A DNA stretch of 64,000 nucleotides, from contig NZ_AP023360.1 in NCBI RefSeq assembly GCF_018326265.1, positions 1,727,501 through 1,791,500 on the forward strand, in the 5' to 3' direction. Under the pieces are notes generated by a model that had not been told where the DNA came from, did no database searches, and worked only from the letters and a program-made list of their open reading frames with translations. Below are positions 1,249 through 18,831 of the stretch, one piece after another. Every line of letters starts with the position of its first letter. The first letter of the stretch is position 1. Position numbers and translations under genes: made by a program. The DNA comes from Catellatospora sp. IY07-71. Lineage in GTDB: Bacteria > Actinomycetota > Actinomycetes > Mycobacteriales > Micromonosporaceae.

Positions 1249-2384
1249 CACAACCCCAATTCCTTCGCGATGATGTGCCGCTGGATGTCGGAGGTGCCGG
1301 AGAAGATCGTGGCCGGCACGGCGTCGCGCAGCGCGGCCTCGATGCCGTCCGCGCGCTGGTAGCCGCGCCCGCCGAAGACCCGCACTGCGTCCAGCGCGGT
1401 GGCCAGCACCCCCTCGGAGACGGCGAGCTTGGCCATGGCGACCGACATCGGCCGCGGCCCGCCCTGGTCCATCTCCCAGCAGGCGCGGTGCAGCAGCAGC
1501 CGGGCCGTGTCGGCCCGGAGCTTCATCTCGGCGATCCGGTGCGAGACGGCCTGGAAGTCGGCCAGCGCGCGGCCGAACTGCCGCCGCTCGCGGGCGTGCG
1601 CGACGGCCCGCTCCACCAGCCGGTCGAGCAGGCCCAGGTAGCCGGCGAACAGGCAGGTGCGCTCCCAGCTCATCGACTGCTGGAAGATCGCCCCGCCCTG
1701 GCCCTCCACCCCGAGGACCCGCTCGTGCGGCACGAACACGCCGTCGAACCGGACCGGACCGGCCGGGCAGGAACTCAAGCCCATCTTGTCGAACGGCTCA
1801 CCGGCCACCAGGCCCGGCGAGCCGCGGTCCACCACGAACCCGGTCACGCCCAGGTGCCCGGCGTGCGGGTCGGTGGTGGCGTACGTGACGTACACGTCGG
1901 CGGCCGGGCCGTTGCTGACGAACGTCTTCTCGCCGTGCAGCACCCACCCGCCGTCGGTCTCGGTGGCGGTGACCGCGAGCCGGGACACGTCCGATCCGGC
2001 GTCGGCCTCGGTCATCGCGTTGCCGGCGATCAGCGTGCCGTCGCACAGGCCCGGCAGCAGCTCCCGCTTGGCCTGCTCGCCCGCGAACTCGGCGATCGGC
2101 GCGGCGCAGGCGAACTGGTGGGCGCTGGACGCGAAGACCAGGCCCGTGTCGGGGCACCCGTAGCCGAGCGCCTCGATCTGCCGTGCCGTGTCGAGGGCGC
2201 CGAGCCCGCCGCCGCCGTACTCGGTGGGCAGGCTGCAGCCGAGCAGGCCAAGCTCGCCCAGGCGGAGCCAGTCCTTGCGGGTGTAGAAGCCGTCACCGCG
2301 CGGTGCCTCAGCGAACGCCTCGCGCACGGCGGTGACCGTGTCCGCGTGCCGTCGCTGCTGTTCAGGGGTCCAGCCGAACTCCAC
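1248..2384 (-). CDS. pltE: Acyl-CoA dehydrogenase-like prolyl-S-carrier protein dehydrogenase
   Basis: A 378-residue flavoprotein of the acyl-CoA dehydrogenase fold. Visible family motifs are the substrate/FAD stretch NAMTEADAGSDVSR, the RRQFGRALADFQAVSHRIAEM helix region and the C-terminal FGGRGYQR and IFSGTSDIQRHIIAKELGL. In PltE/RedW homologues this enzyme oxidises carrier-bound proline to pyrrole-2-carboxyl with two double-bond insertions. From memory the sequence resembles PltE along its length, including the segment around TGLVFASSAHQFACAAPI. It lies 24 bases downstream of the carboxyltransferase gene and overlaps the adenylation gene by one base, so all three are likely one transcript. 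A generic acyl-CoA dehydrogenase is possible but fits the context less well. Confidence 0.85.
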   Translation of the reverse strand: MEFGWTPEQQRRHADTVTAVREAFAEAPRGDGFYTRKDWLRLGELGLLGCSLPTEYGGGGLGALDTARQIEALGYGCPDTGLVFASSAHQFACAAPIAEFAGEQAKRELLPGLCDGTLIAGNAMTEADAGSDVSRLAVTATETDGGWVLHGEKTFVSNGPAADVYVTYATTDPHAGHLGVTGFVVDRGSPGLVAGEPFDKMGLSSCPAGPVRFDGVFVPHERVLGVEGQGGAIFQQSMSWERTCLFAGYLGLLDRLVERAVAHARERRQFGRALADFQAVSHRIAEMKLRADTARLLLHRACWEMDQGGPRPMSVAMAKLAVSEGVLATALDAVRVFGGRGYQRADGIEAALRDAVPATIFSGTSDIQRHIIAKELGL

Positions 2385-2408: not shown

Positions 2409-3836
2409 TCACAACGGGATGTTGGGCAGTCGGTGCGGCACCGAGCGGCGGCGGCTCAGTGCGCGGATCAGGGTGGTACGGGTGTCCGCCGGGTCGATGA
2501 CCGCGTCGACGATGCCGTCCCGCACCGCGGCGGCCAGGCCGTGCTCGGTCTGCCGATACTCCGCGACCAGCTCCGCTTCCAGCGCGGCGCGTGCGGTGTC
2601 GTCGTCGACCGCCTCCAGCCGCCGCCGGTTGGCCACCCGCACCGTCGACTCGGCGCTCATCACGTCCACCTCGGCGCCGGGCCAGGCGTAGACCGCGTCG
2701 GCGCCGAGCGAGCGGCTGTTCATCGCGATGAACGCGCCGCCGAACGCCTTGCGGGTGACCAGGGTGACCCGGGGCACCTGGCACGCGGCGAACGCGTGCA
2801 GCAGCTTCGCGCCGCGGCGCAGCACCCCGTTGGTCTCCTGGCTCACCCCGGGCAGGTAGCCGGGCACGTCCACCAGCACCACCAGGGGCACGCCGTACGC
2901 GTCGCACAGCCGCACGAAGCGGCTCGCCTTGTCGCCGGCCTCGGCGTCCAGGCAGCCGCCGAGCTTCAGCGGGTTGTTGGCGACCACGCCGACGGTGCGC
3001 CCGCCGAGGCGGCCCAGCGCGGTCACCACGTGCGGCGCCCAGCGCGGGTGCAGCTGCACCGCGGGCGCGTCCAGCAGCGCGTCGACCAGCTTGGTCACGT
3101 TGTACGCCTGGCGCGGCGACTCCGGCAGCAGCGCGCGGTAGTCCTCTCCGTCCAGGGTGTTGCCGGCCCGGCCGAAGGCCCGCTGGTCGCCCAGCAGCGT
3201 CACCAGCTCGCGGGCGGCGTCCAGGCACTCGGCCTCGTCGCGGCGGATCAGGTGGGCCACGCCGCTGTGCCGGGAGTGCACCGCCGCGCCGCCCAGCTCC
3301 GCGAAGCCGACCTCGACCCCGGTCGCGTCGCGCACCACGCGCGGGCCGGTGACGAACATCGACGCCTCTTCGGACATGATCACGAGGTCGGTGAGCGCGG
3401 AGCCGTACGCCGCGCCGCCCGCCGCCGAGCCGAGCACCACCGAGATCTGCGGGGTGCGCCCGGAGGCGGCGACGATGGCCCGGAACACCCGGCCCACCCC
3501 GTCCAGCGCGCCGACGCCCTCGGTGAGCGAGGCGCCGCCGGACTGCCACAGGCCGACCACCGGCAGCCCGCGCAGGTCGGCCTGCTCGATGCACTCGGCG
3601 ATGCGGGTGCAGCCCTCCTGCGTCATCGCGCCGCCGCGGCGGGCCGGGTCGGTCGCGTAGGCCGCGGCGGGGACGCCGCCGATGGGGCCGTAGGCCACGG
3701 CCACCTCGCTGTCGCGGGCCGGGAGCAGCAGCTCCGGATTGCCGCCGTCGAAGAGCCCGAGCAGTCGCGCGCTGGCGCGGTCCGCCGTCCCGGCGCCCGG
3801 TGCGGGCCCGGCGGGCAAGGTCTCGATAACCGTCAT
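2409..3836 (-). CDS. Acyl-CoA carboxylase carboxyltransferase (beta) subunit
   Basis: A 475-residue carboxyltransferase of the propionyl/acetyl-CoA carboxylase beta family. Two crotonase-like halves are visible, with the oxyanion-hole glycines in VVLGSAAGGAAYGSALTD and, in the second half, DVPGYLPGVSQETNGVLRRGAKLLHAF and KAFGGAFIAMNSRSLGAD. It would carboxylate an acyl-CoA (acetyl, propionyl or longer) to an extender unit, working with a biotinylated alpha subunit that is not in this window. It is the first gene of the pyrrole-starter operon, reading from a promoter at 3881-3908 that carries a palindromic operator, opposite the divergent tetR gene. A cluster-borne copy suggests a dedicated supply of malonyl-type extender, which I infer rather than see. 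Confidence 0.85.
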   Translation of the reverse strand: MTVIETLPAGPAPGAGTADRASARLLGLFDGGNPELLLPARDSEVAVAYGPIGGVPAAAYATDPARRGGAMTQEGCTRIAECIEQADLRGLPVVGLWQSGGASLTEGVGALDGVGRVFRAIVAASGRTPQISVVLGSAAGGAAYGSALTDLVIMSEEASMFVTGPRVVRDATGVEVGFAELGGAAVHSRHSGVAHLIRRDEAECLDAARELVTLLGDQRAFGRAGNTLDGEDYRALLPESPRQAYNVTKLVDALLDAPAVQLHPRWAPHVVTALGRLGGRTVGVVANNPLKLGGCLDAEAGDKASRFVRLCDAYGVPLVVLVDVPGYLPGVSQETNGVLRRGAKLLHAFAACQVPRVTLVTRKAFGGAFIAMNSRSLGADAVYAWPGAEVDVMSAESTVRVANRRRLEAVDDDTARAALEAELVAEYRQTEHGLAAAVRDGIVDAVIDPADTRTTLIRALSRRRSVPHRLPNIPL

Positions 3837-4580: not shown

Positions 4581-5930
4581 TCAGCGGGCGCCGGCCCGTT
4601 CCGCCGCCGGGTAGACGGGCGTCGACCACGCCTCGTGGGCCAGCCGGCGCGCGTGCTCCTCGGCGCTCTGATTGACCCGGCGCATCGCGTAGCGCAGCAC
4701 CGGGGGCGCCATCAGCGAGGTCACCACCGCGACCAGCACGATGATGGTGTACGACGTGGTGTTCAGCACGCCCACGCGCAGCCCCACCATCGCCACGACG
4801 ACCTCCACCACGCCGCGGGCATTGAGGCCGGCGCCGAGGGCCAGCCCCTCCCACCGGTTCAGCCCGCTCATCCAGGCGCCCAGGTAGGCCCCGACGAACT
4901 TGCCGAGGATCGCCACCGCCAGCACGGCCAGGGCGATGAGGAACATGGTCGGGTCGCCCAGCACCGTCAGGTCGATCCGGAGACCGGCCGTCGCCAGGAA
5001 GATGGGGGCGAGCACGGAGAGCACGACGGTGCGCAGCGGGGCCAGCCGTTCCGCGTCGACGACGCCGGGGCGGCCGACGATCATGCCGACCACGAAGGCG
5101 CCGAAGACGGCCTCCAGGCCGAGCAGGTGCGTGACGGCGCCGCCGAGCACCATGAGCCCGGCGACCACCGCGGGGGTGGTGCCGCGGTTGTCGGAGCGCC
5201 CGGCCAGCCGCAGCGCGCCGGACACCAGCGGGCGGCCGAGCACCGCGGCGAACACCACGAAGCCGACCAGGAAGAGGACGGACCGGGTGACCTGCCAGGC
5301 GCTGAGACCGATGGTCGCCATCGCCGACACGACGGAGAGCAGCAGCCAGCCGACCGCGTCGTCGACGGTGCCGGCGGCAATGGTCAGCTGGCCGACGTCC
5401 CGGTGCAGCAGCCGCATGTCGGTGAGCGTCTTGGCGATCACCGGGATCGCGCTGACGCACATGGCGACCCCGAGGAACAGGGCGAACACGGTCCGGGACA
5501 CTCCGTCGGGCACGATCGCCGCGGGCAGTGCGTAGCTGAGCGCGATGCCGAAGCCGAGCGGGAGCAGCAGTCCACAGAGGCTGATCCGCACGGCGGTGAC
5601 CCCGCGGCGGCGGATGAGCCCCAGGTCGAGGTGGGCGCCGGTGATGCCCACCAGCAGCATGACGCCCAGCAGGCCGACGGCGTCCAGCAGGTGGACCTGA
5701 CTGGCCTCGTTCGGCAGCAGCCAGGCCGAGACGCCCGGGGCGAGCACGCCGAGCAGGCTGGGGCCGAGCAGCACGCCGGTGAACAGCTCACCGACGATCG
5801 CGGGCATCTTCAAGCGTTCCGCCAACCGGCCCAGGACGACGGCGACCAGCAGCAGGGTCGCCACCTGGAGCAGGAAGAGCAGCACCGCATGGGCGGGGAT
5901 GGGGGGAGCTGGCTCGAATGCGAATGTCAC
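4581..5930 (-). CDS. Cation/proton antiporter, CPA2 (KefB/NapA-like) family
   Basis: A 449-residue integral membrane protein with about 12-13 hydrophobic segments beginning at residue 15. Family features include LAERLKMPAIVGELFTGVLLGPSLLG in the first third and TLTDMRLLHRDVGQLTIAAGTVDDAVGWLLLSVV, which carries the acidic pair of the CPA2 ion-binding unrolled helix region. The C-terminus is a short charged tail without RCK/TrkA-N domains. It exchanges a monovalent cation for protons across the cell membrane. It lies inside the pyrrole cluster, between the tetR and halogenase units and co-directional with the biosynthetic genes. Because many halogenated pyrroles act as protonophores, a role in self-protection is a reasonable inference but not shown by sequence. 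Confidence 0.9.
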   Translation of the reverse strand: MTFAFEPAPPIPAHAVLLFLLQVATLLLVAVVLGRLAERLKMPAIVGELFTGVLLGPSLLGVLAPGVSAWLLPNEASQVHLLDAVGLLGVMLLVGITGAHLDLGLIRRRGVTAVRISLCGLLLPLGFGIALSYALPAAIVPDGVSRTVFALFLGVAMCVSAIPVIAKTLTDMRLLHRDVGQLTIAAGTVDDAVGWLLLSVVSAMATIGLSAWQVTRSVLFLVGFVVFAAVLGRPLVSGALRLAGRSDNRGTTPAVVAGLMVLGGAVTHLLGLEAVFGAFVVGMIVGRPGVVDAERLAPLRTVVLSVLAPIFLATAGLRIDLTVLGDPTMFLIALAVLAVAILGKFVGAYLGAWMSGLNRWEGLALGAGLNARGVVEVVVAMVGLRVGVLNTTSYTIIVLVAVVTSLMAPPVLRYAMRRVNQSAEEHARRLAHEAWSTPVYPAAERAGAR

Positions 5931-6008: not shown

Positions 6009-7352
6009 TCAGAACGCGGGTGCCGCGGTCGGGGCCTTGAGCTCCCCGAGATACGGCCGCCACAGGTGGGTCTCGTCCTCCTCGACCGCGCGCACGATCT
6101 CGCGCATCTCGGCGAGCGCCGCCGGCTCGTCGTCCTCGTAGACGTCGCCCTGCAGCAGCTTCAGCACGTCGAGCCGGTAGCGCGGGTCCTGGACGAAGGC
6201 GGTGAACAGGATGTTCAGGCGGTAGTAGATGGTGATGAACTCGTACCAGTTGCTGACGCCGCGGCGCAGCTTGGTCTCGTAGATGCTGAACCGCTTCTTG
6301 GCGAAGTCACCGGCCTCGGCGGCCGCGATGATGTCGGCGCAGGCGATGCGGGCGCTGTTCATCGCGACGCTGACGCCGCTGGAGAAGATCGGGTCGACGA
6401 AGCGGGCCGCGTCGCCGATCAGCACGAAGTTGTCGCCGCAGATCTGGCTGACGCTGTAGCTGTAGTCGCCCTCGGACTTGAACGGCTTCACCTGCTCGGC
6501 CGCGCGCAGCGCGCGGGCCAGCTCCGGCCGGCTCTCCACCGAGTCCCAGAAGAACTCCTCGCGCTCGGTCTTCGAGGCCGCGAAGCGCTTCTTCTGCGTC
6601 ACCACGCCGATCGAGGTGATGGTCTCGGTGATGGGGATCTGCCACACCCAGGTGTCGGTGAGCGGCAGGAAGTGGATGAAGATGTAGTCGGTCTGCTCCG
6701 GGTTCAGCGCCAGCGCCTTGCGGTCGAAGTTGTCGAACCACGTGTGGATGGCGTACTGGTTGAAGACCGGGTCGGAGATCTTGGTCTTCATCTGGCTGGC
6801 CAGCAGGGTGCGCCGCCCGGAGGCGTCCACGACCATCCGCACCGGGATCTGCTGCGCCTCGCCGTCGATGCGCACGTGGACCACGGGGAACTCGCCCTCG
6901 AAGTCCACGTTCTGCACCCGGGCGTTGTAGCGCACGTCCGCGCCGAGGCTGGCCGAGTGGTCCAGCAGGATCTTGTCGAAGATCCCGCGGTCGACGTGGT
7001 ACGTGTGGTCGCGGTCGACGCCGGGCTGGTCACGCTCGTGGAACAGGATGTCTGCGGCGCGGAAGTCGTGGGTCAGGCCGGTGAAACCCATGTGGTCGAT
7101 GGGCCGGGACTCCGCCGAGGTCCAGGCCGCGCCGTACTTCTTCGGGAAGTTCGCGGCCTCGATCTTCTCCATCGCGCCGATCTCCAGGAGCACCGGCGTG
7201 GTGGCGGGCACGAGGGACTCGCCCACGTGCTCACGGGGGAACGTCTCGCTCTCGAGGACGACCACCGAGAGGCCGGCCTTCGCGAGGTAGGACGCCGCGG
7301 TCGAACCGGCGGGGCCGCCGCCGATAACTGCGATGTCGAACGCTGGTTGCAC
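6009..7352 (-). CDS. pltA: Flavin-dependent pyrrolyl-carrier protein halogenase (PltA-like)
   Basis: A 447-residue FADH2-dependent halogenase. The FAD-binding GGGPAG is at residues 11-16, the halogenase signature WVWQIP at 235-240 (which excludes ordinary monooxygenases) and a conserved lysine pair in FPKKYGAAW at about 69-77. FVLIGDAARFVDPIFSSGVS binds the second part of FAD. Long stretches match PltA as I recall it, for example HTWFDNFDRKALALNP and RLNILFTAFVQDPRYRLDVLKLLQGDVY. PltA-type enzymes chlorinate pyrrole-2-carboxyl bound to a carrier protein. The start is the GTG at 7352, preceded by a strong AAGGAGG five bases upstream. The gene follows the PltL-like carrier by 29 bases. Number and position of halogen atoms cannot be read from sequence. 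Confidence 0.93.
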   Translation of the reverse strand: MQPAFDIAVIGGGPAGSTAASYLAKAGLSVVVLESETFPREHVGESLVPATTPVLLEIGAMEKIEAANFPKKYGAAWTSAESRPIDHMGFTGLTHDFRAADILFHERDQPGVDRDHTYHVDRGIFDKILLDHSASLGADVRYNARVQNVDFEGEFPVVHVRIDGEAQQIPVRMVVDASGRRTLLASQMKTKISDPVFNQYAIHTWFDNFDRKALALNPEQTDYIFIHFLPLTDTWVWQIPITETITSIGVVTQKKRFAASKTEREEFFWDSVESRPELARALRAAEQVKPFKSEGDYSYSVSQICGDNFVLIGDAARFVDPIFSSGVSVAMNSARIACADIIAAAEAGDFAKKRFSIYETKLRRGVSNWYEFITIYYRLNILFTAFVQDPRYRLDVLKLLQGDVYEDDEPAALAEMREIVRAVEEDETHLWRPYLGELKAPTAAPAF

Positions 7353-7381: not shown

Positions 7382-7663
7382 TCAGGCGCTTGCGACCTCG
7401 GTGGGCAGCAGCGACCGCACGAGGCTGGTGATGGTGTTGATGCTGCGGAAGTGCCGGCCGGTGATGGCCGTCGGCGGCACCGAGACGTGCAGCTCTTCGC
7501 GGATGAACGTGAGCAGCCGGGCCGTGTTCATCGAGTTGAGGACGCCCCACTCCAGCAGCGGGGAGTCCGCGTCCAGCTCGCCCGCCGACTCACTGCCCAG
7601 CAGGTGGTCGACGATGAACGAGGTGACGCGGGCCTGGATCTCGTCGGTGTCGATGGTGGTCAC
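7382..7663 (-). CDS. pltL: Peptidyl carrier protein for prolyl/pyrrolyl thioester (PltL-like)
   Basis: A 93-residue carrier protein. The phosphopantetheine serine is S44 in LLEWGVLNSMN; the unusual LNS in place of the common DSL is shared with PltL as I recall it, as are ITGRHF and the SPLLEWG lead-in. It would carry proline through dehydrogenation to pyrrole and present it to the halogenase encoded 29 bases downstream. The GTG at 7663 is preceded by GAGGAG about eight bases upstream. Transcription likely starts from the promoter at 7739-7767, giving a leader of about 70 bases. Confidence 0.92.
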   Translation of the reverse strand: MTTIDTDEIQARVTSFIVDHLLGSESAGELDADSPLLEWGVLNSMNTARLLTFIREELHVSVPPTAITGRHFRSINTITSLVRSLLPTEVASA

Positions 7664-7738
7664 TTCTGTGCTCCTCGGGTTCTGGCTACGTGCGGCTCCA
7701 TAGCGGACGGTCGGACAGCAAAAGTCATCTTGTGAGGA

Positions 7739-7767
7739 ACTCTACAAGCGATGAACTGTCTCGACAA
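7739..7767 (-). promoter_or_regulatory. Sigma-70-type promoter of the carrier protein-halogenase unit
   Basis: On the minus strand: -35 TTGTCG (7767-7762), 17-base spacer, -10 TAGAGT (7744-7739). The block from the spacer through the -10, CATCGCTTGTAGA followed by an ATTCCTC-like end, is nearly identical to the promoter of the ACP operon at 13417-13445, suggesting co-regulation. Confidence 0.7.
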
Positions 7768-7903: not shown

Positions 7904-8704
7904 CTAGAAGCCCGTGGCGTCCAGGAAGGAGCGGACGGCGGCGGCGAAGCCGGCCTCGTCGTCGTCGTACACGAAGTGGCCGCCGGTCAGCACGGTCAGC
8001 GTGGCCCGGGGCGCCTTCGCCGCCATCTCGGCGGCGTGATCGGCGGCGAGCACGAAGCTGTCGCTGCCCGCGATCAGCAGCGTCGGGCAGGACACGGCCA
8101 GCCAGTCCGCCCAGTGGTCGCCGTTGAGCCGGTCCTGCGCCGCGAGGGCGTCCTCCACCCGGCAGGCCAAGCCCCAGCCGTCGGCGTGCTCGCGTACCCC
8201 GTCCACCAGGTACGGCCCGAGGAAGCCGAGGGCGTCGAGGAACTGCTCGCGGCTCGGCGCACGCTCCGGCCAGGCCCGCGCGAACGACAGGTCGGCCTCG
8301 ATCACGGCGCCCACGTCGGCCACCACCAGCGCGCTGACCCGCTCGGGCCGGCGCGCGGCGAGCTGGTACGCGTTAGCGCCGCCCAGCGAGTGCCCGACCA
8401 CGGGCAGGCGTTCCAGGCCCAGGTGGTCGAGCAGCGCGACGAGGTCGCTCAGGAAACCCTCACGGGTGTACGGCGGCGCGGGGTCCGACGACCCGTGACC
8501 GCGCTGGTCCGGCGCGATGACCCGGCGGCCGGGCAGGGCCGCGGCCAGCCGGGCGAACGCACGGCCCTCGCTGAACAGCCCGTGCAGTGCGAGCACGGGC
8601 TGTCCGGTGCCGAAGTCGCGATAGGCCAGCCGGTGGCCGCCGAGGTCCAGGTACCGCGGTGAGGGGAGGTCCGGCCACCGCCCCATGCCGCCATCACCAA
8701 CCAC
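7904..8704 (-). CDS. Alpha/beta hydrolase
   Basis: A 266-residue alpha/beta hydrolase. The oxyanion HG motif is in LALHGLFSEG, the nucleophile elbow GHSLGG is at about residues 112-117, an acid lies in the LLIAGSDSF stretch and the catalytic histidine is in LTGGHFVYDDDE near residue 240. Such enzymes cleave esters, thioesters or C-C bonds; the substrate here is not evident. It has its own terminator at 7850-7889 and lies inside the cluster on the same strand. The GTG at 8704 sits about three bases after the expected start point from the promoter at 8714-8740, so the message may be leaderless; an ATG at 8686 is the alternative start. It could be an editing thioesterase or release enzyme. Confidence 0.85.
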   Translation of the reverse strand: MVGDGGMGRWPDLPSPRYLDLGGHRLAYRDFGTGQPVLALHGLFSEGRAFARLAAALPGRRVIAPDQRGHGSSDPAPPYTREGFLSDLVALLDHLGLERLPVVGHSLGGANAYQLAARRPERVSALVVADVGAVIEADLSFARAWPERAPSREQFLDALGFLGPYLVDGVREHADGWGLACRVEDALAAQDRLNGDHWADWLAVSCPTLLIAGSDSFVLAADHAAEMAAKAPRATLTVLTGGHFVYDDDEAGFAAAVRSFLDATGF

Positions 8705-8793: not shown

Positions 8794-10401
8794 TCAGCCG
8801 GCCGGCGTGGGCGGCTCCTCCGTCCGGGGCCGCGCCTCGGTGAAGTCGCCGCGCTCGTACGCCGCCACGATGGCCCGCCGCTGCAGCTTGCCGCTGCTGG
8901 TGCGCAGCAGCCGCCCCGGGCGCAGGAAGTGCACGTCCTCCGGGCGGACGGTGACGCCGGTGGCGTGCACCAGGTGCTCCACGATGCGGGCCCGGCACCC
9001 GCCCGGATCGGCCCGCGCGGTGCGGTCCGCCTCGGCCAGCACCACGATCCGCCCGCCGGCCTGCGCCACCGCCACCCGCCGGATGAACGCCAGCTGCTCC
9101 AGGGCCTGCTCGAAGTCGGCGGCGAACAGACTCTGCCCGTTCACCTTGATGCGGTCGCTGATCCGGCCGGTGATGAACAGCTCGCCGCCGTCGACGAAGC
9201 CGATGTCGCCGGTGGCGTAGAAGCCGTCCGTCCCGGTCAGCGGCCGCGGGTCGTCCAGATAGGAGTCCGCCAGCGTGCCGCCGGCCAGCTCGATCTCGCC
9301 GAGCTGGCCGTCGCGGCACACGCGGCCGTCCTCGGTGCGCAGCCGCACCGTGAACCCCGGCATCGGCGGCCCGACCGAGATCGCGGGCAGCCCCGAGGGC
9401 GAGCGCACGATGCGCACCCGCCCGCCGCGCGGCCGGCTCGTCACCACGAGCACCGTCTCGGCCATGCCGTAGCAGGGCATGAAGACGTCGTCGCGCAGCC
9501 CGGCCGGGGCCATCAGCGCCAGGAACTCCTCCAGGTTGCGGATGTTGATCGGCTCGCTGCCCAGGTAGATGACGTGCAGCCGGGACAGGTCCAGCTCGGC
9601 CAGCTCCGCCCGGTCCAGGTCGCGCATCAGCCGCAGCGAGTAGTCGACCGCGAAGTTCGGCACCACCGTGCCGCAGACGCCCTCGCGCGCCATGTGCGCC
9701 CACCAGCCGTACGCGTCGAACAGGAACGTCGACGGCTCGGCCAGCAGCAGGTCGCTGCCGCTCGCGAAGGAGGACAGCAGGCCGCCGACCAGGCCCATGT
9801 CGTGGTAGAGGGGCAGCCAGCTGCTCACCCGATCCTCGGGGCGGCGGCCGTCGGTGCCCAGGATCATCGCCAGGTTGGCCCGCAGCCGCCCCTGCGTGAT
9901 CGGGATACCCTTCGGGAACGAGGTCGAGCCCGAGGAGAACTGCACGAAGGCCAGCTCGTCGTCGGCCGGCACCCGCAGCCGCGCGCCGGGCAGCCGCAGC
10001 TCCGGGTCGGGCAGCGGCAGCCGGGCCAGCGGCAGGTCCACCGTGGCGAGGCTCGGCGTCTGCAGCACGGCCGCCGCGCCGAACTCCCCCGCCACCCGGC
10101 CGAGGAAGTCCTCGTAGCCGGCCTTCGGGCTGTGCGGCAGCAGCGGCTTCACCGACAGCGGCAGCGCGCCCGCCTCCATCAGGGCCAGGAACGACAGGAT
10201 CACCGCCGCCGAGGTCTCGAACGGCACGATCACCCGGGTGCCCGGCCCGATGCCGTGCGCGCGGAAGTGCTCGGCGTACGCGGCGATGCGCGCCGGGAAC
10301 TCGCGGTAGAGCACCGTCTCCGGCGGGTCGGCGAACTTCTCGTACAGGTGCAGGCCGTGCTCGGGCACGGTGTCGTGGTTGCGCTGGACGTGTTCGAGCA
10401 C
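8794..10401 (-). CDS. Fatty-acyl-AMP ligase (FAAL)
   Basis: A 535-residue adenylating enzyme of the FAAL branch. The ATP-binding motif is FVQFSSGSTSFPKG, followed by the FAAL-type SSWLPLYHDMGLVGGLL, GSEPINIRNLEEF, CYGMAETVLVV, ATGDIGFVDGGELFITGRISDRIKVNGQ and, near the end, LLRTSSGKLQRRA. FAALs make acyl-adenylates and hand them directly to a carrier protein without coenzyme A. The partner is presumably the ACP encoded at 13409. The GTG at 10401 follows the hydrolase stop by nine bases. It is the last gene of the ACP - desaturase - PPTase - thioesterase - hydrolase - FAAL run. The acyl chain length and whether it is linear cannot be read. Confidence 0.9.
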   Translation of the reverse strand: MLEHVQRNHDTVPEHGLHLYEKFADPPETVLYREFPARIAAYAEHFRAHGIGPGTRVIVPFETSAAVILSFLALMEAGALPLSVKPLLPHSPKAGYEDFLGRVAGEFGAAAVLQTPSLATVDLPLARLPLPDPELRLPGARLRVPADDELAFVQFSSGSTSFPKGIPITQGRLRANLAMILGTDGRRPEDRVSSWLPLYHDMGLVGGLLSSFASGSDLLLAEPSTFLFDAYGWWAHMAREGVCGTVVPNFAVDYSLRLMRDLDRAELAELDLSRLHVIYLGSEPINIRNLEEFLALMAPAGLRDDVFMPCYGMAETVLVVTSRPRGGRVRIVRSPSGLPAISVGPPMPGFTVRLRTEDGRVCRDGQLGEIELAGGTLADSYLDDPRPLTGTDGFYATGDIGFVDGGELFITGRISDRIKVNGQSLFAADFEQALEQLAFIRRVAVAQAGGRIVVLAEADRTARADPGGCRARIVEHLVHATGVTVRPEDVHFLRPGRLLRTSSGKLQRRAIVAAYERGDFTEARPRTEEPPTPAG

Positions 10402-10410
10402 GGCGGGCTC

Positions 10411-11325
10411 CTACTCCTCGGTCGCCGGGACGGCCCCGGCGCGCTTCATCCAGCCGGCCACCCCGGGCAGCACCTCGGCCTCGGCCCGTGCCCCCCGGAT
10501 CACGTCGTAGTGGCCGGGATCCCAGCTCAGGCCGGTCTGGCGGCCGTACACCCGGAAGTCCACCGGGCCGCCCAGCCGGTCCGCGAGCTTGCGGCCGCGC
10601 GCCGGCGAGGCGTGGAACGTGTCGGCGGCGCCGATCGCCACCAGCGCGGGCACGGTCACCCGGGACAGCGCCTGCCAGTAGTCGGTCGTGCCGTCGGCGC
10701 TGCGGAACTCGCCCCGGGGCGCCCAGTCGGCGAACTGCCGCATCAGCCCCGCGGGCTCGTCCCAGCGGCCCTGCCGCAGCGCCTTCGCGGGGAACCGGCC
10801 GGCCAGCCGGGCCAGCAGCGCCGCGCCGCGCAGCTGCACGCGCTTGCCCGCCCCGCCCTCGGAGTAGTCGTTGACCGCCGAGGAGATGGTCACCACCCCG
10901 GCGAGGTGCCGCTGCAGCGACGGGTCCACGCCGAGCGCGGCCAGCAGCGCGTACCCGATCATGCTGTGCGCCAGCACGAACAGCGGCCCCTGGTGGGCCG
11001 CGGCCACCCCGCGGATCAGGTCGGGGAGGTCGTGGCGCACGTAGGTGTCGAAGTTCCAGTCGTACGCACGCCGCCGGGGCCAGCGGCTCCGGCCGTGCCC
11101 GCGCAGCGACGCGACGTACGCGGTGAACCCGCGCTCCACGAACACCGTGGCGGGACCGCGCCCCGCCGAGCTGAGGAAGAACCCGCCGTCGGAGAACAGC
11201 CCCGGCAGGAAGAGCACGCCGGGGGCGGCGCCGCCCTGCGGCGGGACCTGCCTGACGTGCAGCTCGTGACCGCCGGACGTGGGCACCCAGCGCTCGGACC
11301 CGGTGACAAGGCCGGACGTGCTCAT
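10411..11325 (-). CDS. Alpha/beta hydrolase
   Basis: A 304-residue alpha/beta hydrolase with VLFLPGLFSDGGFF at the oxyanion position, nucleophile elbow AHSMIG (variant of GHSxG) near residue 130, an acid in LVAIGAADTFH and a histidine in SWDPGHYDVIRG. RGHGRSRW resembles the lipase/esterase lid region of long-chain acyl hydrolases. The ATG at 11325 has GGAG five bases upstream; the GTG two codons earlier overlaps that ribosome site and is less likely. It sits between the thioesterase and FAAL genes, so it may act on an acyl chain, for instance as an editing or chain-release enzyme. Substrate unknown. Confidence 0.82.
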   Translation of the reverse strand: MSTSGLVTGSERWVPTSGGHELHVRQVPPQGGAAPGVLFLPGLFSDGGFFLSSAGRGPATVFVERGFTAYVASLRGHGRSRWPRRRAYDWNFDTYVRHDLPDLIRGVAAAHQGPLFVLAHSMIGYALLAALGVDPSLQRHLAGVVTISSAVNDYSEGGAGKRVQLRGAALLARLAGRFPAKALRQGRWDEPAGLMRQFADWAPRGEFRSADGTTDYWQALSRVTVPALVAIGAADTFHASPARGRKLADRLGGPVDFRVYGRQTGLSWDPGHYDVIRGARAEAEVLPGVAGWMKRAGAVPATEE

Positions 11326-11355
11326 CTGCACTCCACTCGGTAGTAGGCGGCGCCG

Positions 11356-11775
11356 TCAGCGGGGCGCGGCGGTCGCCAGGAAGTCCTGCATCGAAACGAG
11401 ACACCGCTGGGCGGTGTCCAGGAACGCGACCGTGACCAGCGCGTCCACCGCCGGTCCGGGCACCTGCGGCAGGTGCAGCCGCTGCCGGAAGCGGGCCCGG
11501 AAGGTGAGGTCGTCGTCCGCGATCTCCTGCTCGCTCGGCGACTCCAGCCGGGTGCGCACCTCGACCTCGCCGCGCGGGAGCTCGGCCAGATAGTCGATGT
11601 TGATCGAGGCCACCACCGCGACCACCCGGTCGCCGTGCACGATGCCCTGACGGCCCATCCAGTCCCAGCGGCCGGCCTCCAGATACTCCAGCGCCACCGC
11701 GTTGTTCACGTGGCCCAGGGCGTCCAGGTCATTGGGCCGGACGGGGAGCGTAAGCCGTGATTCGCCGAAGAACAT
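11356..11775 (-). CDS. Hot-dog fold acyl thioesterase (4HBT family)
   Basis: A 139-residue single hot-dog thioesterase. The family motif is PVRPNDLDALGHVNNAVALEYLEAGR, with the catalytic aspartate region at about residues 16-22 and GHVNN at 21-25. Proteins of this group hydrolyse acyl-CoA or acyl-ACP thioesters. Its start overlaps the 3' end of the phosphopantetheinyl transferase gene by 47 bases; the motif position leaves no room for a later start, so the overlap appears real. In this operon it could free a desaturated fatty acid from the ACP or clear mis-primed chains. Confidence 0.85.
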   Translation of the reverse strand: MFFGESRLTLPVRPNDLDALGHVNNAVALEYLEAGRWDWMGRQGIVHGDRVVAVVASINIDYLAELPRGEVEVRTRLESPSEQEIADDDLTFRARFRQRLHLPQVPGPAVDALVTVAFLDTAQRCLVSMQDFLATAAPR

Positions 11776-12205
11776 CGCGGGCCTTCCGATCGATCGTGCC
11801 GAAGAAGCGCTGGTAAACCGAGGTCCGGCCGGTCACCACGACCACGGAGGAGACGAAACCGCCGCTGTGCGAGATGGAGACGTTCACCCGCAGCCGGTGC
11901 CGGGCCAGGTGGCGGGCGAGCGAGCCGCGGATGTCGAACTCCGGTCCCCCGTGCGGATCGTGGACCACCTCGGCGTCCGTCCAGAACCAGGGCTCCCGGG
12001 CCGGTGGCAGCGCCTTGAACAGCGCCTCCTTGGCCGCGAAGGCGCCCGCCAGGCTCTGCAGCGGCCCCACCGCGCCGGCGAAGCGGCGCAGCTCACGGTC
12101 GGTGAAGAAGACATCGGGCTCGCGCAGCCCGGAGGCGACCTCCAGCTCGCTGATCAGCTGGAGGTCGTGCCCCAGGCCGATCAGCTGCCCAGCAGGTCCA
12201 GCCAA
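11729..12205 (-). CDS. AcpS-type 4'-phosphopantetheinyl transferase
   Basis: A holo-ACP synthase-like protein of about 150-158 residues. It starts IGLGHDLQLISELE (magnesium aspartate), then DVFFTDRELRRF, the signature SLAGAFAAKEALFKAL and the ending VNVSISHSGGFVSSVVVV. It converts apo-carrier proteins to the holo form, presumably the two carriers of this cluster. No ATG or GTG is available at the expected position. The candidates are TTG at 12205, seven residues upstream of the core, and CTG at 12184, which would give a CTGA overlap with the desaturase stop. I give the TTG start, which has a GAGGA stretch just before it. The end overlaps the thioesterase gene by 47 bases. Confidence 0.82.
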   Translation of the reverse strand: MAGPAGQLIGLGHDLQLISELEVASGLREPDVFFTDRELRRFAGAVGPLQSLAGAFAAKEALFKALPPAREPWFWTDAEVVHDPHGGPEFDIRGSLARHLARHRLRVNVSISHSGGFVSSVVVVTGRTSVYQRFFGTIDRKARDVLRRITAYAPRPAQ

Positions 12206-13119
12206 GTGTCCTCGACCTCTTCCCGCGTGTGCACCTCGATGCCGGTGATCTTCTTGAGCGCGCTGCAGACCAGCTGCTCCTTCTTCTCGATCGCCTCCGG
12301 GCGGAAGTCCATCTCCTTGGTCTCCAGCTGGTCCCACCAGTTGACGTGGGTGCCCCGCTCCTCCAGCTTGTCGCGGGCGCTGCCCTGCAGCTCGCCGTCC
12401 TCGCGCAGGAACAGGTGCGCCACCGCGAACGCGTCCTTGGCGTGGTACTCCCCGCTGTCGACCAGGGCCTTGGCGAACGCGATGAAGTAGTTGCGGTGCT
12501 GGATCTCGTCCGCGGCCACCTGCTTGAAGATGCGGCGCAGGCCCGGGTCGGCCACCACGTGCTGGCACTGGCCGTAGTTCACCGCGGCGGTGATCTCCGA
12601 GATCGCGAGCAGCACCAGCGTGCGCAGCATGTCGTCGTCGGGGAAGACCTGCCGGAAGTTGATGAACGTCTCGTCGTCGATCGGCTCCATGCCGGAGAGG
12701 TCGGCGAGGCGGTTGAACACCGTCTCGTGGTGCGCCTCCTCCTCGTTCCAGTACCGGCTCCAGGTGCCGCACGCCTCCATCACCGAGGCCAGCGCCGGGT
12801 TGGTGTCCCGCCAGCGGTTGCACTCGGCGTTGGCCTGGCGTTCCAGCCGGTCCGCACCCGGCTTGGTGGTCAGCTCGGCCCGGCCCGCGTTCCAGACCAG
12901 CATCCGGTCGGTCGGGGTCAGACTGTCCAGGTCCACCGCGGCGAGCATGTCCACCACGCTCCACCGGCGCGACTCGTGCAGCCGCTGCTGCTCCCAGGTC
13001 ACGTCCACGAGCGACATGCCGCGCTCGGTGAGCGCCGCCCAGAGGTCGGTGAGGATGGCGGGCGGTCCCGCGGGCACGGTCGACCGGCGGATCCTCGGCT
13101 GCACGTCCATGACGGTCAT
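12181..13119 (-). CDS. Diiron acyl-ACP desaturase-like protein
   Basis: A 312-residue soluble ferritin-like diiron protein. The two metal motifs are EExxH at about residues 127-131 (WNEEEAHHETVF) and DExxH at 204-208 (QVAADEIQHRNYF), with a further glutamate in ISEITAAVNYGQ near 175. Their spacing follows plant-type and mycobacterial DesA acyl-ACP desaturases. It would insert a double bond, hydroxyl or other oxidation in a chain bound to the ACP encoded just upstream, with which it shares a four-base ATGA overlap. AurF-like N-oxygenases have the same fold, so N-oxidation cannot be excluded. The EExxH-DExxH pair and the ACP partner favour acyl-ACP chemistry. Confidence 0.82.
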   Translation of the reverse strand: MTVMDVQPRIRRSTVPAGPPAILTDLWAALTERGMSLVDVTWEQQRLHESRRWSVVDMLAAVDLDSLTPTDRMLVWNAGRAELTTKPGADRLERQANAECNRWRDTNPALASVMEACGTWSRYWNEEEAHHETVFNRLADLSGMEPIDDETFINFRQVFPDDDMLRTLVLLAISEITAAVNYGQCQHVVADPGLRRIFKQVAADEIQHRNYFIAFAKALVDSGEYHAKDAFAVAHLFLREDGELQGSARDKLEERGTHVNWWDQLETKEMDFRPEAIEKKEQLVCSALKKITGIEVHTREEVEDTWLDLLGS

Positions 13120-13409
13120 GCCACGGCCTCCCTCTGGCGGTCGAACTCCTCCTGGAAGACCCTCAGCACGGTCGTGGTCGGGGTGTCGAGCGGCATCGCG
13201 GGCAGGCGCACGCGGGCGCCGTACTCCTTGCGCAGCGCGTTGGCGGTGCGCGCGAACGCCTCCATGAGGTCGATGCTGTTGGTCATCCGAGGGCTGCGGG
13301 CGATCACGGTCGCCAGCGTCACGTCGTCGCCGAACAGCTGGTCCTCCGGCAGGCCGGCATGTTCGGCGAACTTCTCCCTGAGGTAGGACTGCACGTCGGT
13401 CTTCATCAT
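13116..13409 (-). CDS. Acyl carrier protein
   Basis: A 97-residue carrier protein. The prosthetic-group serine is S45 in RMTNSIDLMEAF, with N in place of the usual D before it. The acidic N-terminal helix KTDVQSYLREKFAEHAGL and the amphipathic helix after the serine fit the ACP fold. It heads the operon leading to desaturase, PPTase, thioesterase, hydrolase and FAAL genes and overlaps the desaturase by four bases (ATGA). The two adjacent ATGs at 13409 and 13406 lie about eight bases after the -10 box, so the transcript is predicted to be leaderless. It likely receives the acyl chain from the FAAL. Confidence 0.88.
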   Translation of the reverse strand: MMKTDVQSYLREKFAEHAGLPEDQLFGDDVTLATVIARSPRMTNSIDLMEAFARTANALRKEYGARVRLPAMPLDTPTTTVLRVFQEEFDRQREAVA

Positions 13410-13416
13410 GCGAGGA

Positions 13417-13445
13417 ATTCTACAAGCGATGAGTCTTACTGCCAA
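13417..13445 (-). promoter_or_regulatory. Sigma-70-type promoter of the ACP operon
   Basis: Minus-strand -35 TTGGCA (13445-13440), 17-base spacer, -10 TAGAAT (13422-13417). The ATG at 13409 is about eight bases after the -10, which predicts a leaderless message. The sequence CTCATCGCTTGTAGAATTCC matches the promoter at 7739-7767 at almost every base. Confidence 0.75.
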
Positions 13446-15509: not shown

Positions 15510-15804
15510 CCCGCCGGCCGGCTGCCGGGGCAGGCCGCCGCGGCGGTGCGCGGCCCGGCTGTCGGCGATCACGAGCAGTCCTTTCGTGGTGGTGCGAGGT
15601 CGGTTGAGGGTCTGACGGACCGGGCGCGGCCCGCCCCGCGCGGGCGGCGTAGCGCCGGCGTGCCGCGCGGCAGGCGTGCGCCAGCCGGGCGGGCAGCCGG
15701 ACGGCCCGCTCGGACGGCGGCCCCGGCCAGGCGGTTCGATCGTCCTGGGTCGATCGGGCGGGCCCGGCGTGAGTGCCTGGGTGAGCAGCTCGGCACCCGG
15801 AATG

Positions 15805-18726
15805 ATGTTCGGCATGGCTTCCGCCTTCATCGGGCGTGCCGCGGAACTCCGCCGGCTCGCCGACCTGCTGGCCACGGTGCGCGAGAAGGGCCGGCCCGCC
15901 ACCGTCCTGATCGGCGGCGAGGCGGGTGTCGGCAAGAGCGAGCTGCTGACGCTGTTCTGCGAGCAGGCCGCGGCAGAGGGCGCTCAGGTGCTCTCCGGCG
16001 CCTGCATCGAGCTGGGCTCGGGTGCGATCCCGTACGGGCCGCTCATCGAGGCGCTGCGGCGGCTGGTGCGCGAGCGCACCGAGGAGAAGGCGCGGGAGCT
16101 GGCCGGCCCGGCGTGGAGCGAACTCGCCCCGCTGATCTCGGACTTCACGGGCGCGGAGGCGCCCGTCGGGGGCCAGGGTTCGCAGCTGAGCGTCTTCGGC
16201 GCGGTCTCCCGGCTGCTCGACCACATCGGCCGGACCACGCCCCTGGTGCTGGTCTTCGAGGACGTGCACTGGGCCGATCCGTCCACGCTGGACCTGATCG
16301 CCTACCTGACCCGCATGGGCTCCGACGAGCGGCTGCTGCTGATCTGCACCCACCGCAGCGACCTGGAGCGCGGCCACCCGGTGCGCCGGGTGCTGGCCGC
16401 GCCGCAGTTCAGCCGGGGCATGCACCGCATCTCGCTGTCCCGGTTCACGACCGCCGAGATGCGGGACCTGATCACCGCGCTGGCGACCGAGCCGGCCGGT
16501 CCCGAGCAGGTGGCGCGCTGCGCCGAGCTGGCCGACGGCAACCCGTACTTCGCGTCGCAGCTGGTGGCCGCCGGTTACCTGGCGGACCCGGATCGCCTGC
16601 CGGAGACGGTCGCGGACATGATGGCGGTCCGGCTGGAGCAGCTGAGCCCCGCCGCGGCCAAGGTGGTCGAGGTCGCGGCGGTGGCGGGTCGGCGGGTCGG
16701 CGACCGGCTGCTCGGCGCGGTGAGCGAACTCGACGCCGAGACGCTGGCCGACGCGCTGCAGGAGTGCCTCGACCAGCTCGTCCTCGTCGAGGACCGGACC
16801 GAGCGGGGGTACGCCTTCCAGCATGCGCTGCTGCGCGCGGCCGCCTACGAGCGGATCGCCGATCTGCGGCGCAGGCTCCGGCATGAGGCGGTGGCGCGGG
16901 CGCTGGCGGCCGAGGCGGAGAAGCACTCGCGCCTGGTGCCGGAGCTGGCGTACCACTGGTTCGCGGCGGCGCAGGAGCCGGAGGCGCTGGCCTGGGCGGT
17001 GCGCGCGGGTGACCTCGCGGTGCGGATGCGGGCCTTCCAGGAGGCGGAGACGCAGTACCGGCGGGCGCTGGAGCTGTGGCCGGGGGTGCCCGGCGCGGCG
17101 GCGGTGGCCGGCACCGCCAAGCTCCGGGTGCTGACCGTGGCGGCCGACGCGGCCCGCTGGGCGGGGCACGTGGACCAGGCGGTGCGGTGGGCGCGCGAGG
17201 CCATCGACGAGGCCGCCGAGGCGGACGGCGACCGGCTCGGGGAGCTGTACGAGCGGCTCGGCAGCTATCTGTGGGAGGCCCGGGCGGTCGACGAGTCGGC
17301 CGAGGCGTATCGCGCGGCGGAGCAGCACCTCGCGGGCGGACCGCCGTCGGCGGCCGGGTCGCGGGTGCAGGCGGCCCTGGCCACGGTGGCGGTCCGGGAC
17401 GGGCAGCACGTCGACGGCCTGGCGCGGGCGAAGCGGGCGGGGGAGCTGGCGCGTGCGGTGCGGGCGCGCGCCGAGGAGGGCCGCGCCCTCAACAGCGAGG
17501 GCCTGGCGCTGACCATGCTCGACGAGCCGGACGAGGGGGTGCGGGCGCTGCGTCAGGGGCTGGAGATCGCGATCGAGGTCGACCATCTGGAGGACACGCT
17601 GCGGGCGTACGCGAATCTGGGGTTGTGCCTGGAGCACGCCGACCTGCTCGCCGAGTCGGTGGAGGTGCTGCTCGACGGGCTGGCGAAGGCCCGGGGGCTG
17701 GGCCTGCTGCACACCCGGCAGGGCGGGGTGCTGGCCAACAACGCCAGCGCGACGCTGACCCTGCTCGGCCGGTGGGACGAGGCGGTGGCGCTGCTGGACG
17801 AGGCGCGGCCCGAGCCGCCCGCCACCGAGACCGCCTACCAACTGCTGAACCGGGCCGAGATCGCCACCGCCCGCGGCCGGTTCGACGAGGCCGAGGGACT
17901 GCTCAGGGAGGTGCGCAGCCGGCCGAACACCGATGCCCGGTTCGTCGGCCCGCTCTACGGGTGCCTGGCCGAGCTGGCGCTGTGGCGGCACGACGGCGGC
18001 CAGGCCGCGGAGGCGGTCACGCGTGGCCTGGAGGCGATCGCGGGCAGCGAGAACGTCCTGGTCCGCCTGCAGCTGTACGCGATGGGCCTGCGGGTGGCCG
18101 CCGACGGCCACCTGTCCCGGACCGGCCCGCAGGAGCAACGGCCGACGCTGGCCGACGTGGCGGCGCTGCTGGACGCGGCGCGGCAGACGGTCGCCGGGCA
18201 CCCCGGCTCACCGGGCACCAGGCTGCTGCTCGAACAGTGCGAGGCGGAGCACGCGCGGGCCGCCAGCGTGGACGCGGCGGCTGCCTGGCGGCGGGTGGCT
18301 GACGGCTGGGAGTCGCTGGAGCGGCCCTACCCGATGGCGTACGCGCGCTTCCGCGAGGCCGAGGCGGAGGCCGTGGCCCGGCACCGGCGCGCCACGGTGG
18401 CTGCCGGCGGCGCGTTCGCGGCCGCCGAGAGGCTGGGCGCCGAGCCGCTGCGCGAGCAGATCGCGGCACTGGCCTCGCGATACCGCCTCGATCTGGTGAA
18501 GCCGCTCCCGGCACCGCGCCCGCCGCTCGGCCTGACCGACCGGGAGTTCGCGGTGCTGCGCGGGATCCGGACCGGCCGGACGAACCGCGAGATAGGACAG
18601 ACCCTGTACATCAGCGAGTCCACGGTGAGCGTGCACGTCACCAACCTGATGCGCAAGCTCGGGGTGCGCAACCGCGCGGAGGCGGCCACGGTGGCCCTTC
18701 GCGAGGGCTTCTTCGCAGGTGACTGA
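15805..18726 (+). CDS. Large LuxR-family STAND ATPase regulator (LAL type)
   Basis: About 973 residues. The N-terminal ATPase has Walker A GGEAGVGKSE near residues 37-46 and Walker B LVLVFEDVHWADPST near 150. The long middle is made of helical TPR-like repeats, and the C-terminal LuxR/GerE domain is LTDREFAVLRGIRTGRTNREIGQTLYISESTVSVHVTNLMRKLG. LAL proteins are ATP-dependent transcription activators, and the STAND class also senses invasion. ATGs at 15802, 15805 and 15814 are all possible and none has a strong ribosome site. About 295 bases upstream of it hold nothing I can name. It precedes the caspase gene by about 105 bases, which contain a palindrome (18732-18749) that could be its binding site. 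Confidence 0.88.
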   Translation: MFGMASAFIGRAAELRRLADLLATVREKGRPATVLIGGEAGVGKSELLTLFCEQAAAEGAQVLSGACIELGSGAIPYGPLIEALRRLVRERTEEKARELAGPAWSELAPLISDFTGAEAPVGGQGSQLSVFGAVSRLLDHIGRTTPLVLVFEDVHWADPSTLDLIAYLTRMGSDERLLLICTHRSDLERGHPVRRVLAAPQFSRGMHRISLSRFTTAEMRDLITALATEPAGPEQVARCAELADGNPYFASQLVAAGYLADPDRLPETVADMMAVRLEQLSPAAAKVVEVAAVAGRRVGDRLLGAVSELDAETLADALQECLDQLVLVEDRTERGYAFQHALLRAAAYERIADLRRRLRHEAVARALAAEAEKHSRLVPELAYHWFAAAQEPEALAWAVRAGDLAVRMRAFQEAETQYRRALELWPGVPGAAAVAGTAKLRVLTVAADAARWAGHVDQAVRWAREAIDEAAEADGDRLGELYERLGSYLWEARAVDESAEAYRAAEQHLAGGPPSAAGSRVQAALATVAVRDGQHVDGLARAKRAGELARAVRARAEEGRALNSEGLALTMLDEPDEGVRALRQGLEIAIEVDHLEDTLRAYANLGLCLEHADLLAESVEVLLDGLAKARGLGLLHTRQGGVLANNASATLTLLGRWDEAVALLDEARPEPPATETAYQLLNRAEIATARGRFDEAEGLLREVRSRPNTDARFVGPLYGCLAELALWRHDGGQAAEAVTRGLEAIAGSENVLVRLQLYAMGLRVAADGHLSRTGPQEQRPTLADVAALLDAARQTVAGHPGSPGTRLLLEQCEAEHARAASVDAAAAWRRVADGWESLERPYPMAYARFREAEAEAVARHRRATVAAGGAFAAAERLGAEPLREQIAALASRYRLDLVKPLPAPRPPLGLTDREFAVLRGIRTGRTNREIGQTLYISESTVSVHVTNLMRKLGVRNRAEAATVALREGFFAGD

Positions 18727-18749: not shown

Positions 18750-18831
18750 GGCCGGACCGGTGTTCGGCGGCCGCCGGGCCGCCTACGCTCGCGGGCAGCG
18801 GACCGACGTCGATGTATGCAAGGGGGATGCC

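Follow-up and report, generated by a model that had tools for sequence, protein, structure and literature searches.

Fatty acyl-AMP ligases (FAALs) and acyl carrier proteins (ACPs) act together in several described systems. In the JamABC system, a free acid is first attached to an ACP by a FAAL and then becomes the target of a desaturase (parts of PMC11837247). Trios of a FAAL, an ACP and a soluble diiron enzyme have also been published, namely the cyanobacterial CylA, CylB and CylC (passages of PMC8406957 and PMC12101540). In the tambjamine pathway, the adenylating enzyme TamA links a fatty acid to a pyrrole product (excerpts of PMC5939613). Here, we address a six-gene operon of Catellatospora sp. 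IY07-71, which encodes an ACP (ACP1), a ferritin-like diiron protein (DII), a phosphopantetheinyl transferase, a thioesterase, a hydrolase and a FAAL. The operon lies in a stretch of 64,000 nucleotides, referred to as the window, which is part of one 8.6 Mb chromosome and covers chromosome positions 1727501-1791500. Our best reading, which we favor with moderate confidence, is that the six genes represent a self-contained, horizontally spread cassette, in which a free fatty acid would be oxidized while bound to a carrier protein of the cassette's own and then released.

The six-gene cassette and its occurrence

The genes lie head to tail on the minus strand, from 13409 to 8794. In window coordinates, the cassette and its promoter are organized as follows.

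13403-13445, minus strand: predicted leaderless cassette promoter, TTGGCA-17-TAGAAT
13116-13409, minus strand: ACP1, a stand-alone acyl carrier protein of atypical kind, its presumed phosphopantetheine serine lying within N-S-I-D-L-M-E
12181-13119, minus strand: DII, a soluble ferritin-like diiron protein (PF03405)
11729-~12205, minus strand: AcpS-type phosphopantetheinyl transferase (PF01648, ACPS, 34.9 bits; start codon uncertain)
11356-11775, minus strand: 4HBT hotdog thioesterase (PF13279, 4HBT_2, 54.8 bits)
10411-11331, minus strand: ABH1, an alpha/beta hydrolase (PF12146, Hydrolase_4, 47.8 bits)
8794-10401, minus strand: FAAL, a stand-alone fatty acyl-AMP ligase (PF00501, AMP-binding, and PF23024, DIP2-like C-terminal domain)

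The DII ATG overlaps the ACP1 stop codon, and the transferase and thioesterase genes overlap as well. The original prediction had described one leaderless operon of these six genes; its coordinates and families are confirmed, the leaderless start being itself a prediction. Because the -10 box TAGAAT ends 7 nt before the first ATG, that of ACP1, the cassette transcript should be leaderless. A TANNNT box ending 7-8 nt before the ACP1 ATG is found in 12/12 other actinobacterial loci, including that of Catellatospora bangladeshensis, against a background of 21/1585 ATGs of any kind in those same loci with 5-9 nt allowed. The window proteins in the cassette region are mostly 94-100% identical to those of C. 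bangladeshensis (locus L006).

Genome contigs of 84,980 species were scanned with the DII sequence, yielding 25 loci, a lower bound given that the scan was pattern-seeded from one sequence. A tblastn search of plasmids gave three more, in Xenorhabdus sp. TH1, Nostoc sp. C057 and Nostoc sp. ATCC 53789. Together with the window, 29 loci were counted for genes within 7 kb of DII, with some queries taken from L010, L018, L061 and L062. ACP1 is present in all 29, the thioesterase in 28, the FAAL in 27, the AcpS in 24 and ABH1 in 20 (21 were counted, the one in L028 being a 40-bit stray), while ACP2 and ABH2, two neighboring genes described below, occur in 2 each. A crotonase is encoded in five loci. 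It never shares a locus with ABH1, and four loci hold neither, as if the two were mutually exclusive partners with equivalent jobs. L028 holds only ACP1 and DII, and L012 and L030 lie near a contig edge, where absences mean little. The gene set is beyond chance, since the whole or nearly whole set recurs around most of the 28 further DII homologues, which are 52-99% identical. The hosts belong to four phyla, comprising Actinomycetota, Myxococcota and the bacteria bearing the Nostoc and Xenorhabdus plasmids, and the Actinomycetota rows cluster together in the DII tree (100/100). In an order-level sample, DII is present in 1 of 397 genomes, the window's own.

In L061-L063, the cassette resides on large Xenorhabdus and Nostoc plasmids and has mobile-element genes in its vicinity. 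On the Nostoc plasmids these include integrases and transposases, and the Xenorhabdus plasmid bears IS110 and Tn3 transposase genes, with a 6.1-kb gene for an AMP-binding protein and a thioester-reductase-domain gene farther away. Such a plasmid location with mobile genes may explain how the cassette spreads.

Usual carriers have D-S-L at the phosphopantetheine serine. ACP1 contains NS(I/V)DLME in all 26 aligned rows, out of 30 ACPs at hand, and the Pfam carrier models match neither the window ACP1 nor those of L061 and L062. This atypical carrier may explain why the cassette brings its own AcpS. The FAAL is nearest to the fatty acyl-AMP ligases, its PDB matches being 7r7e (named polyketide synthase), 3pbk (fatty acyl-adenylate ligase) and the FadD23/FadD32 AMP ligases. 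It aligns with 7r7e with small gaps through what is likely the FAAL-specific insertion region. The NCBIfam models are equivocal alone, with a CoA-ligase subfamily at 234 bits followed by a FAAL subfamily at 229 bits, both far under their cut-offs. A role in anti-phage defense was considered and set aside, as none of the six proteins has a PADLOC match at E<=0.01.

The diiron protein and its proposed chemistry

DII is, judged from its sequence, a divergent relative of the acyl-ACP desaturases, and is expected to resemble desaturases or hydroxylases more than CylC or AurF. The Pfam acyl-ACP desaturase model PF03405 is matched by 25 of 26 DII homologues at E<=1, with the window DII marginally over the cut-off (24.2 vs 22.7 bits). 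In the PDB, DII matches DesA2 with an E of 3.2e-5. With hhalign, a DesA-type profile of five sequences gives 91.4%, in an alignment of 106 columns that takes in three of the four ligand helices. The presumed ligands E99, E128/H131, E175 and E205/H208, whose roles are assigned by motif, are invariant in 16 chosen rows and fit a 2-His/4-carboxylate set in the order E, ExxH, E, ExxH. In the 26-row set, L030 is without the last ligand pair, at a place where its match splits in two.

The nearest published FAAL-ACP-soluble diiron set found, within the available portions of the literature, is CylA-CylB-CylC, which would suggest a CylC-like radical halogenase or, alternatively, an AurF-like N-oxygenase, with a halogenated or N-oxidized chain as the product. 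However, CylC bears the motifs QExxH and HxxDExxH with a predicted 3 His/3 Glu site (PMC12101540, in part), whereas DII bears EExxH and (V/I)xxDExxH, the Val or Ile standing three residues before the DExxH aspartate, in the place of the third His (16 rows). CylC-type identity is thus disfavored on the published motif rather than on CylC sequences. AurF-like identity is disfavored on the same Val/Ile and on two further results: an AurF-type profile of ten sequences gives 1.6% with hhalign, and no DII locus is among the AurF-family (PF11583) matches at E<=0.01 in six genomes. We regard either identity as highly improbable, and DII stands apart from the N-oxygenases, as the original prediction required.

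A nearer alternative is that the reaction of DII on the acyl chain is hydroxylation, epoxidation or oxidative cleavage and not desaturation. DII is far from the canonical desaturases, and its ligands are non-decisive, since most non-heme diiron hydroxylases also have a 2-His/4-carboxylate site (PMC12101540, in part). The nearest profile kin of DII are nevertheless the acyl-ACP desaturases, and we consider this alternative unlikely.

Two further observations concern DII copies. Hyalangium versicolor (L021:8072-10888) contains two tandem ACP-DII pairs, the upstream DII being 53% identical to that of the window, and the genome behind L028 has a second DII copy (56%).

The protein families suggest how the cassette would function, from a free fatty acid substrate through desaturation rather than hydroxylation to a release step. 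The cassette's own AcpS would arm ACP1, and the FAAL would activate a free fatty acid as acyl-AMP and load it on ACP1. DII would then act on the ACP1-bound chain as an oxidase, most probably by creating a double bond. The hotdog thioesterase would release the product, and the hydrolase, or the crotonase in some relatives, would process either the substrate or the product.

Flanking genes bear upon the release step. Queries for ketosynthase, acyltransferase and part of an adenylation domain were run against the flanks of the 25 genome loci and three plasmid loci, and ten extra flanks; these reached at most 10 kb, or 18 kb in the plasmids, and some were truncated. A ketosynthase match turned up in one locus only, leaving 27 of the 28 other loci and the ten extra flanks without one in the sequence fetched. 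Streptomyces bohaiensis (L029:492-4123) has a ketosynthase (41% to the Catellatospora polyketide synthase, PKS) and an adenylation-domain-like stretch 5.5-9 kb upstream of the cassette, the ketosynthase match being 8 kb upstream of ACP1. The Xenorhabdus plasmid has adenylation-domain-like matches 10-14 kb upstream. For the 18 kb around the cassette on the Nostoc plasmids, a gene table that is incomplete names no PKS or nonribosomal peptide synthetase (NRPS). In 5 of 8 Streptomyces/Saccharothrix loci (L007-L011), a second module lies about 0-9 kb upstream of the cassette and includes a second FAAL-type ligase, a ThiS-like protein, acyl-CoA dehydrogenases, an ACP and a major facilitator superfamily (MFS) transporter, with gene calls incomplete per locus. 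The same module also holds a 275 aa protein with no Pfam match, hotdog-like by eye. Corallococcus has, among its upstream genes, those for a class III CoA-transferase and an SCP2 protein; the search was made in L018, and the genes of the other loci were assigned by clustering.

Several of our results weigh against the proposed route of oxidation and release. In a search of six genomes, the six DII loci score 16.6-23.8 bits with the desaturase model, two of them under the cut-off, and DesA-type proteins in 5 of these 6 cassette genomes score 221-241 bits. The chemistry of DII may therefore differ, given these low scores and a DesA alignment of 106 columns only. In L007-L011, S. bohaiensis and Xenorhabdus, the flanking genes suggest that the acyl product may be passed to a later step instead of being freed. 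Five loci (L012, L014, L015, L016 and L028) have no AcpS near DII, four loci contain neither hydrolase nor crotonase, and no ferredoxin or reductase gene was noticed among the six cassette genes.

The neighboring halopyrrole cluster and the duplicated promoter

Next to the cassette in the window lie the following features.

7904-8704, minus strand: ABH2, a second alpha/beta hydrolase (Pfam), found in Catellatospora only
7725-7767, minus strand: copy of the cassette promoter, upstream of the ACP2-halogenase operon, TTGTCG-17-TAGAGT
7382-7663, minus strand: ACP2, a carrier-protein-like gene directly upstream of the halogenase, assigned by eye
6009-7352, minus strand: PltA-type FADH2-dependent halogenase (PDB matches; GTG start picked by eye)
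4581-5930, minus strand: Na+/H+ antiporter-type transporter (PF00999, 159 bits)
2409-3836, minus strand: acyl-CoA carboxylase carboxyltransferase-type protein, AccD/MmdA type (PF01039, 372 bits)
1248-2384, minus strand: PltE-type dehydrogenase of L-prolyl-peptidyl carrier protein (prolyl-PCP), with 331.8 bits to 6cxt (named butyryl-CoA dehydrogenase) and 330.6 bits to the prolyl-PCP dehydrogenase 5zw0

A prolyl-PCP-ligase-like gene (chromosome 1727297-1728751) crosses the left end of the window, and its searched 200 of 485 aa are closest to the L-proline--carrier-protein ligase 6o6e (209.7 bits). To the left of the window, this gene is followed by PKS genes, a thioesterase gene and, judged by eye, a flavin-reductase-like gene; in one PKS gene the domains run, in order, ketosynthase, acyltransferase, ketoreductase, ACP and reductase. 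The best solved relatives of the halogenase are 5buk (739.6 bits), ChlB4 (7fco, 683.5 bits) and PltA (5dbj, 656.2 bits). ChlB4, whose score falls between those of 5buk and PltA, acts on another acyl substrate rather than a pyrrolyl-S-carrier. Prolyl-PCP ligase, prolyl-PCP dehydrogenase, carrier and PltA-type halogenase are found together, the carrier by eye and the ligase by the searched part. The adjacent halogenated-pyrrole genes of the original prediction are thus present, together with PKS genes, and by its predicted products this is a true pyrrolyl halogenation and polyketide cluster that borders the cassette.

The regions upstream of ACP1 and ACP2 are identical in 27 of 30 bases, running through the ACP1 start codon, and the 17-base spacer between the -35-like and -10-like boxes is kept at both sites. 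The match scores 24, against a best shuffle of 15, and 0 of 5000 shuffled pairs reach 24. Allowing <=3 mismatches, the 21-base promoter core is found at these two chromosome sites only; a wider regulon sharing this promoter was therefore rejected. Unlike the leaderless layout, the core does not recur outside Catellatospora in the part of the fetched loci searched with <=5 mismatches, where the only other matches are in L052 (own chromosome, 5) and L054 (Frankia, 4). The simplest account of this pattern is that the cassette promoter was duplicated in front of the carrier-halogenase operon. The promoter copy, with a core found only twice in the chromosome, makes co-regulation likely, so that the cassette and the carrier-halogenase genes of the pyrrolyl-PKS cluster would probably be expressed together in Catellatospora. 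It is the best evidence that the two operons are used together.

A further explanation is a hybrid lipid-halopyrrole pathway in which the cassette acyl group becomes part of the Catellatospora halopyrrolyl polyketide, for example as an alkylmalonyl extender made via the AccD-type carboxylase, or by acylation of the PKS product. The duplicated promoter agrees with such a pathway, as does the AccD-type gene adjoining the prolyl-PCP dehydrogenase. Among 11 genomes of the genus Catellatospora, DII is present in two, the same two that bear the halogenase and the prolyl-PCP dehydrogenase; these two genomes are closely related, however, so the genus pattern represents one evolutionary event. For a right-flank gene at 15676-18723, too, the second Catellatospora genome is the only one with a close match (93%).

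The distribution of the halogenase is less favorable to the hybrid. Such a halogenase lies within 7 kb in only 2 of 29 loci, those of the window and its close relative C. bangladeshensis, and extending the count to all of the flanking sequence fetched for the 25 genome loci adds no other. The original prediction had named just this, homologues lying mostly apart from halogenase clusters, as an outcome that would refute it. A halogenase-like match at E<=1e-20 occurs in 18 of the 25 cassette genomes, and one of >=60% identity in three, those of Catellatospora, Streptomyces sp. SID8352 and Frankia sp. AgB32. In the latter two, the cassette and the halogenase are on different contigs, the separation being less certain in Frankia, where the cassette lies ~6 kb from a contig end, and the halogenase regions carry their own PltE- and PltF-like genes. 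The SID8352 pyrrolyl-halogenase region also contains an AMP-ligase-like (31%) and AccD-like (40%) pair, which speaks for the hybrid. Since so close a halogenase is rare in cassette genomes and mostly on other contigs, the cassette is not generally linked to halopyrrole genes, and its own thioesterase suggests release. We therefore find the hybrid pathway rather improbable, though covalent joining of the lipid and the pyrrole polyketide in Catellatospora is possible and a reasonable guess.

The original prediction had joined a desaturated fatty acid to a halopyrrole in a single pathway. Of this, two parts stand, a gene set suited to modifying a free fatty acid on a carrier and the adjacent halopyrrole cluster, and in Catellatospora the duplicated promoter connects their operons; membership in a general halopyrrole module does not hold. 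A broader and tentative proposal, which we judge doubtful, is that of a mobile, phylum-crossing acyl-ACP shuttle with a private ACP and its own AcpS, in which a new diiron subfamily would desaturate the chain and an unsaturated acid with signaling or antibiotic function would be released. In Catellatospora, promoter duplication would have wired this shuttle into the halopyrrole polyketide, giving an undescribed alkenyl halopyrrole.

Two other regions were observed nearby. At chromosome 1682987-1688123, ~40-45 kb left of the window, is a halogenase-like gene (by eye and tblastn) with adenylation-domain-like, carrier-like (73 aa) and amine-oxidase-like neighbors, all by eye. At 18760-21405 on the plus strand, the window encodes a large protein whose N-terminal region reads by eye as caspase/peptidase C14-like.

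Comparison with known systems

The novelty claimed for this pathway is weaker than first stated, since the CylABC trios (PMC8406957, PMC12101540) and TamA (PMC5939613) are in print, as the available parts of these papers describe. The words "ferritin", "diiron", "di-iron" and "pyrrole" are all absent from the main text of the FAAL review PMC11837247. Among the open-licence publications listed, compared by title or the start of the abstract, none on this cassette was found, a weak negative.

If our reading is true, four phyla share a portable route for oxidizing free fatty acids, which runs on a private carrier and apart from normal fatty-acid synthesis and CoA metabolism. A soluble C-H oxidizing enzyme would be available with its own loading enzyme and carrier, and the duplicated promoter would show how a lipid module gets tied to a halopyrrole cluster.

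The cassette is a variant of the known carrier-bound fatty-acid modification cassettes. The JamABC oxidase is a membrane desaturase, whereas the cassette oxidase is soluble and ferritin-like by sequence, with no membrane desaturase in that role. The order of events is alike, with a FAAL loading a free acid on an ACP and a desaturase next; in JamABC, however, the acyl group is elongated by PKS/NRPS (PMC11837247, in part). With the soluble desaturases of the FA_desaturase_2 family, such as DesA2 and the plant stearoyl-ACP desaturase, DII shares the EExxH and DExxH helix pairs and a presumed acyl-ACP substrate, but it differs in its far lower scores and in having a dedicated ACP and FAAL in its operon.

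The tambjamine pathway is not known to contain a DII-like diiron protein. It resembles the Catellatospora locus in that a fatty acid is directed to a pyrrole product by an adenylating enzyme (PMC5939613, in part), but in Catellatospora the link between lipid and halopyrrole is only genomic. CylA-CylB-CylC come close, with a stand-alone FAAL and an ACP alongside a soluble ferritin-like diiron enzyme acting on an acyl-ACP; DII differs from CylC in its 2-His/4-carboxylate set in place of the predicted 3 His/3 Glu site (passages of PMC12101540), and the cassette encodes an AcpS, a thioesterase and a hydrolase besides and in most loci has no PKS next to it. The PltA/Mpy16 pyrrolyl-PCP clusters share with Catellatospora the prolyl ligase, the prolyl-PCP dehydrogenase, the carrier and the PltA-type halogenase. 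In contrast to those clusters, a reductase domain stands at the end of a Catellatospora PKS gene, and the predicted promoter of the Catellatospora carrier-halogenase operon is shared with a lipid cassette.

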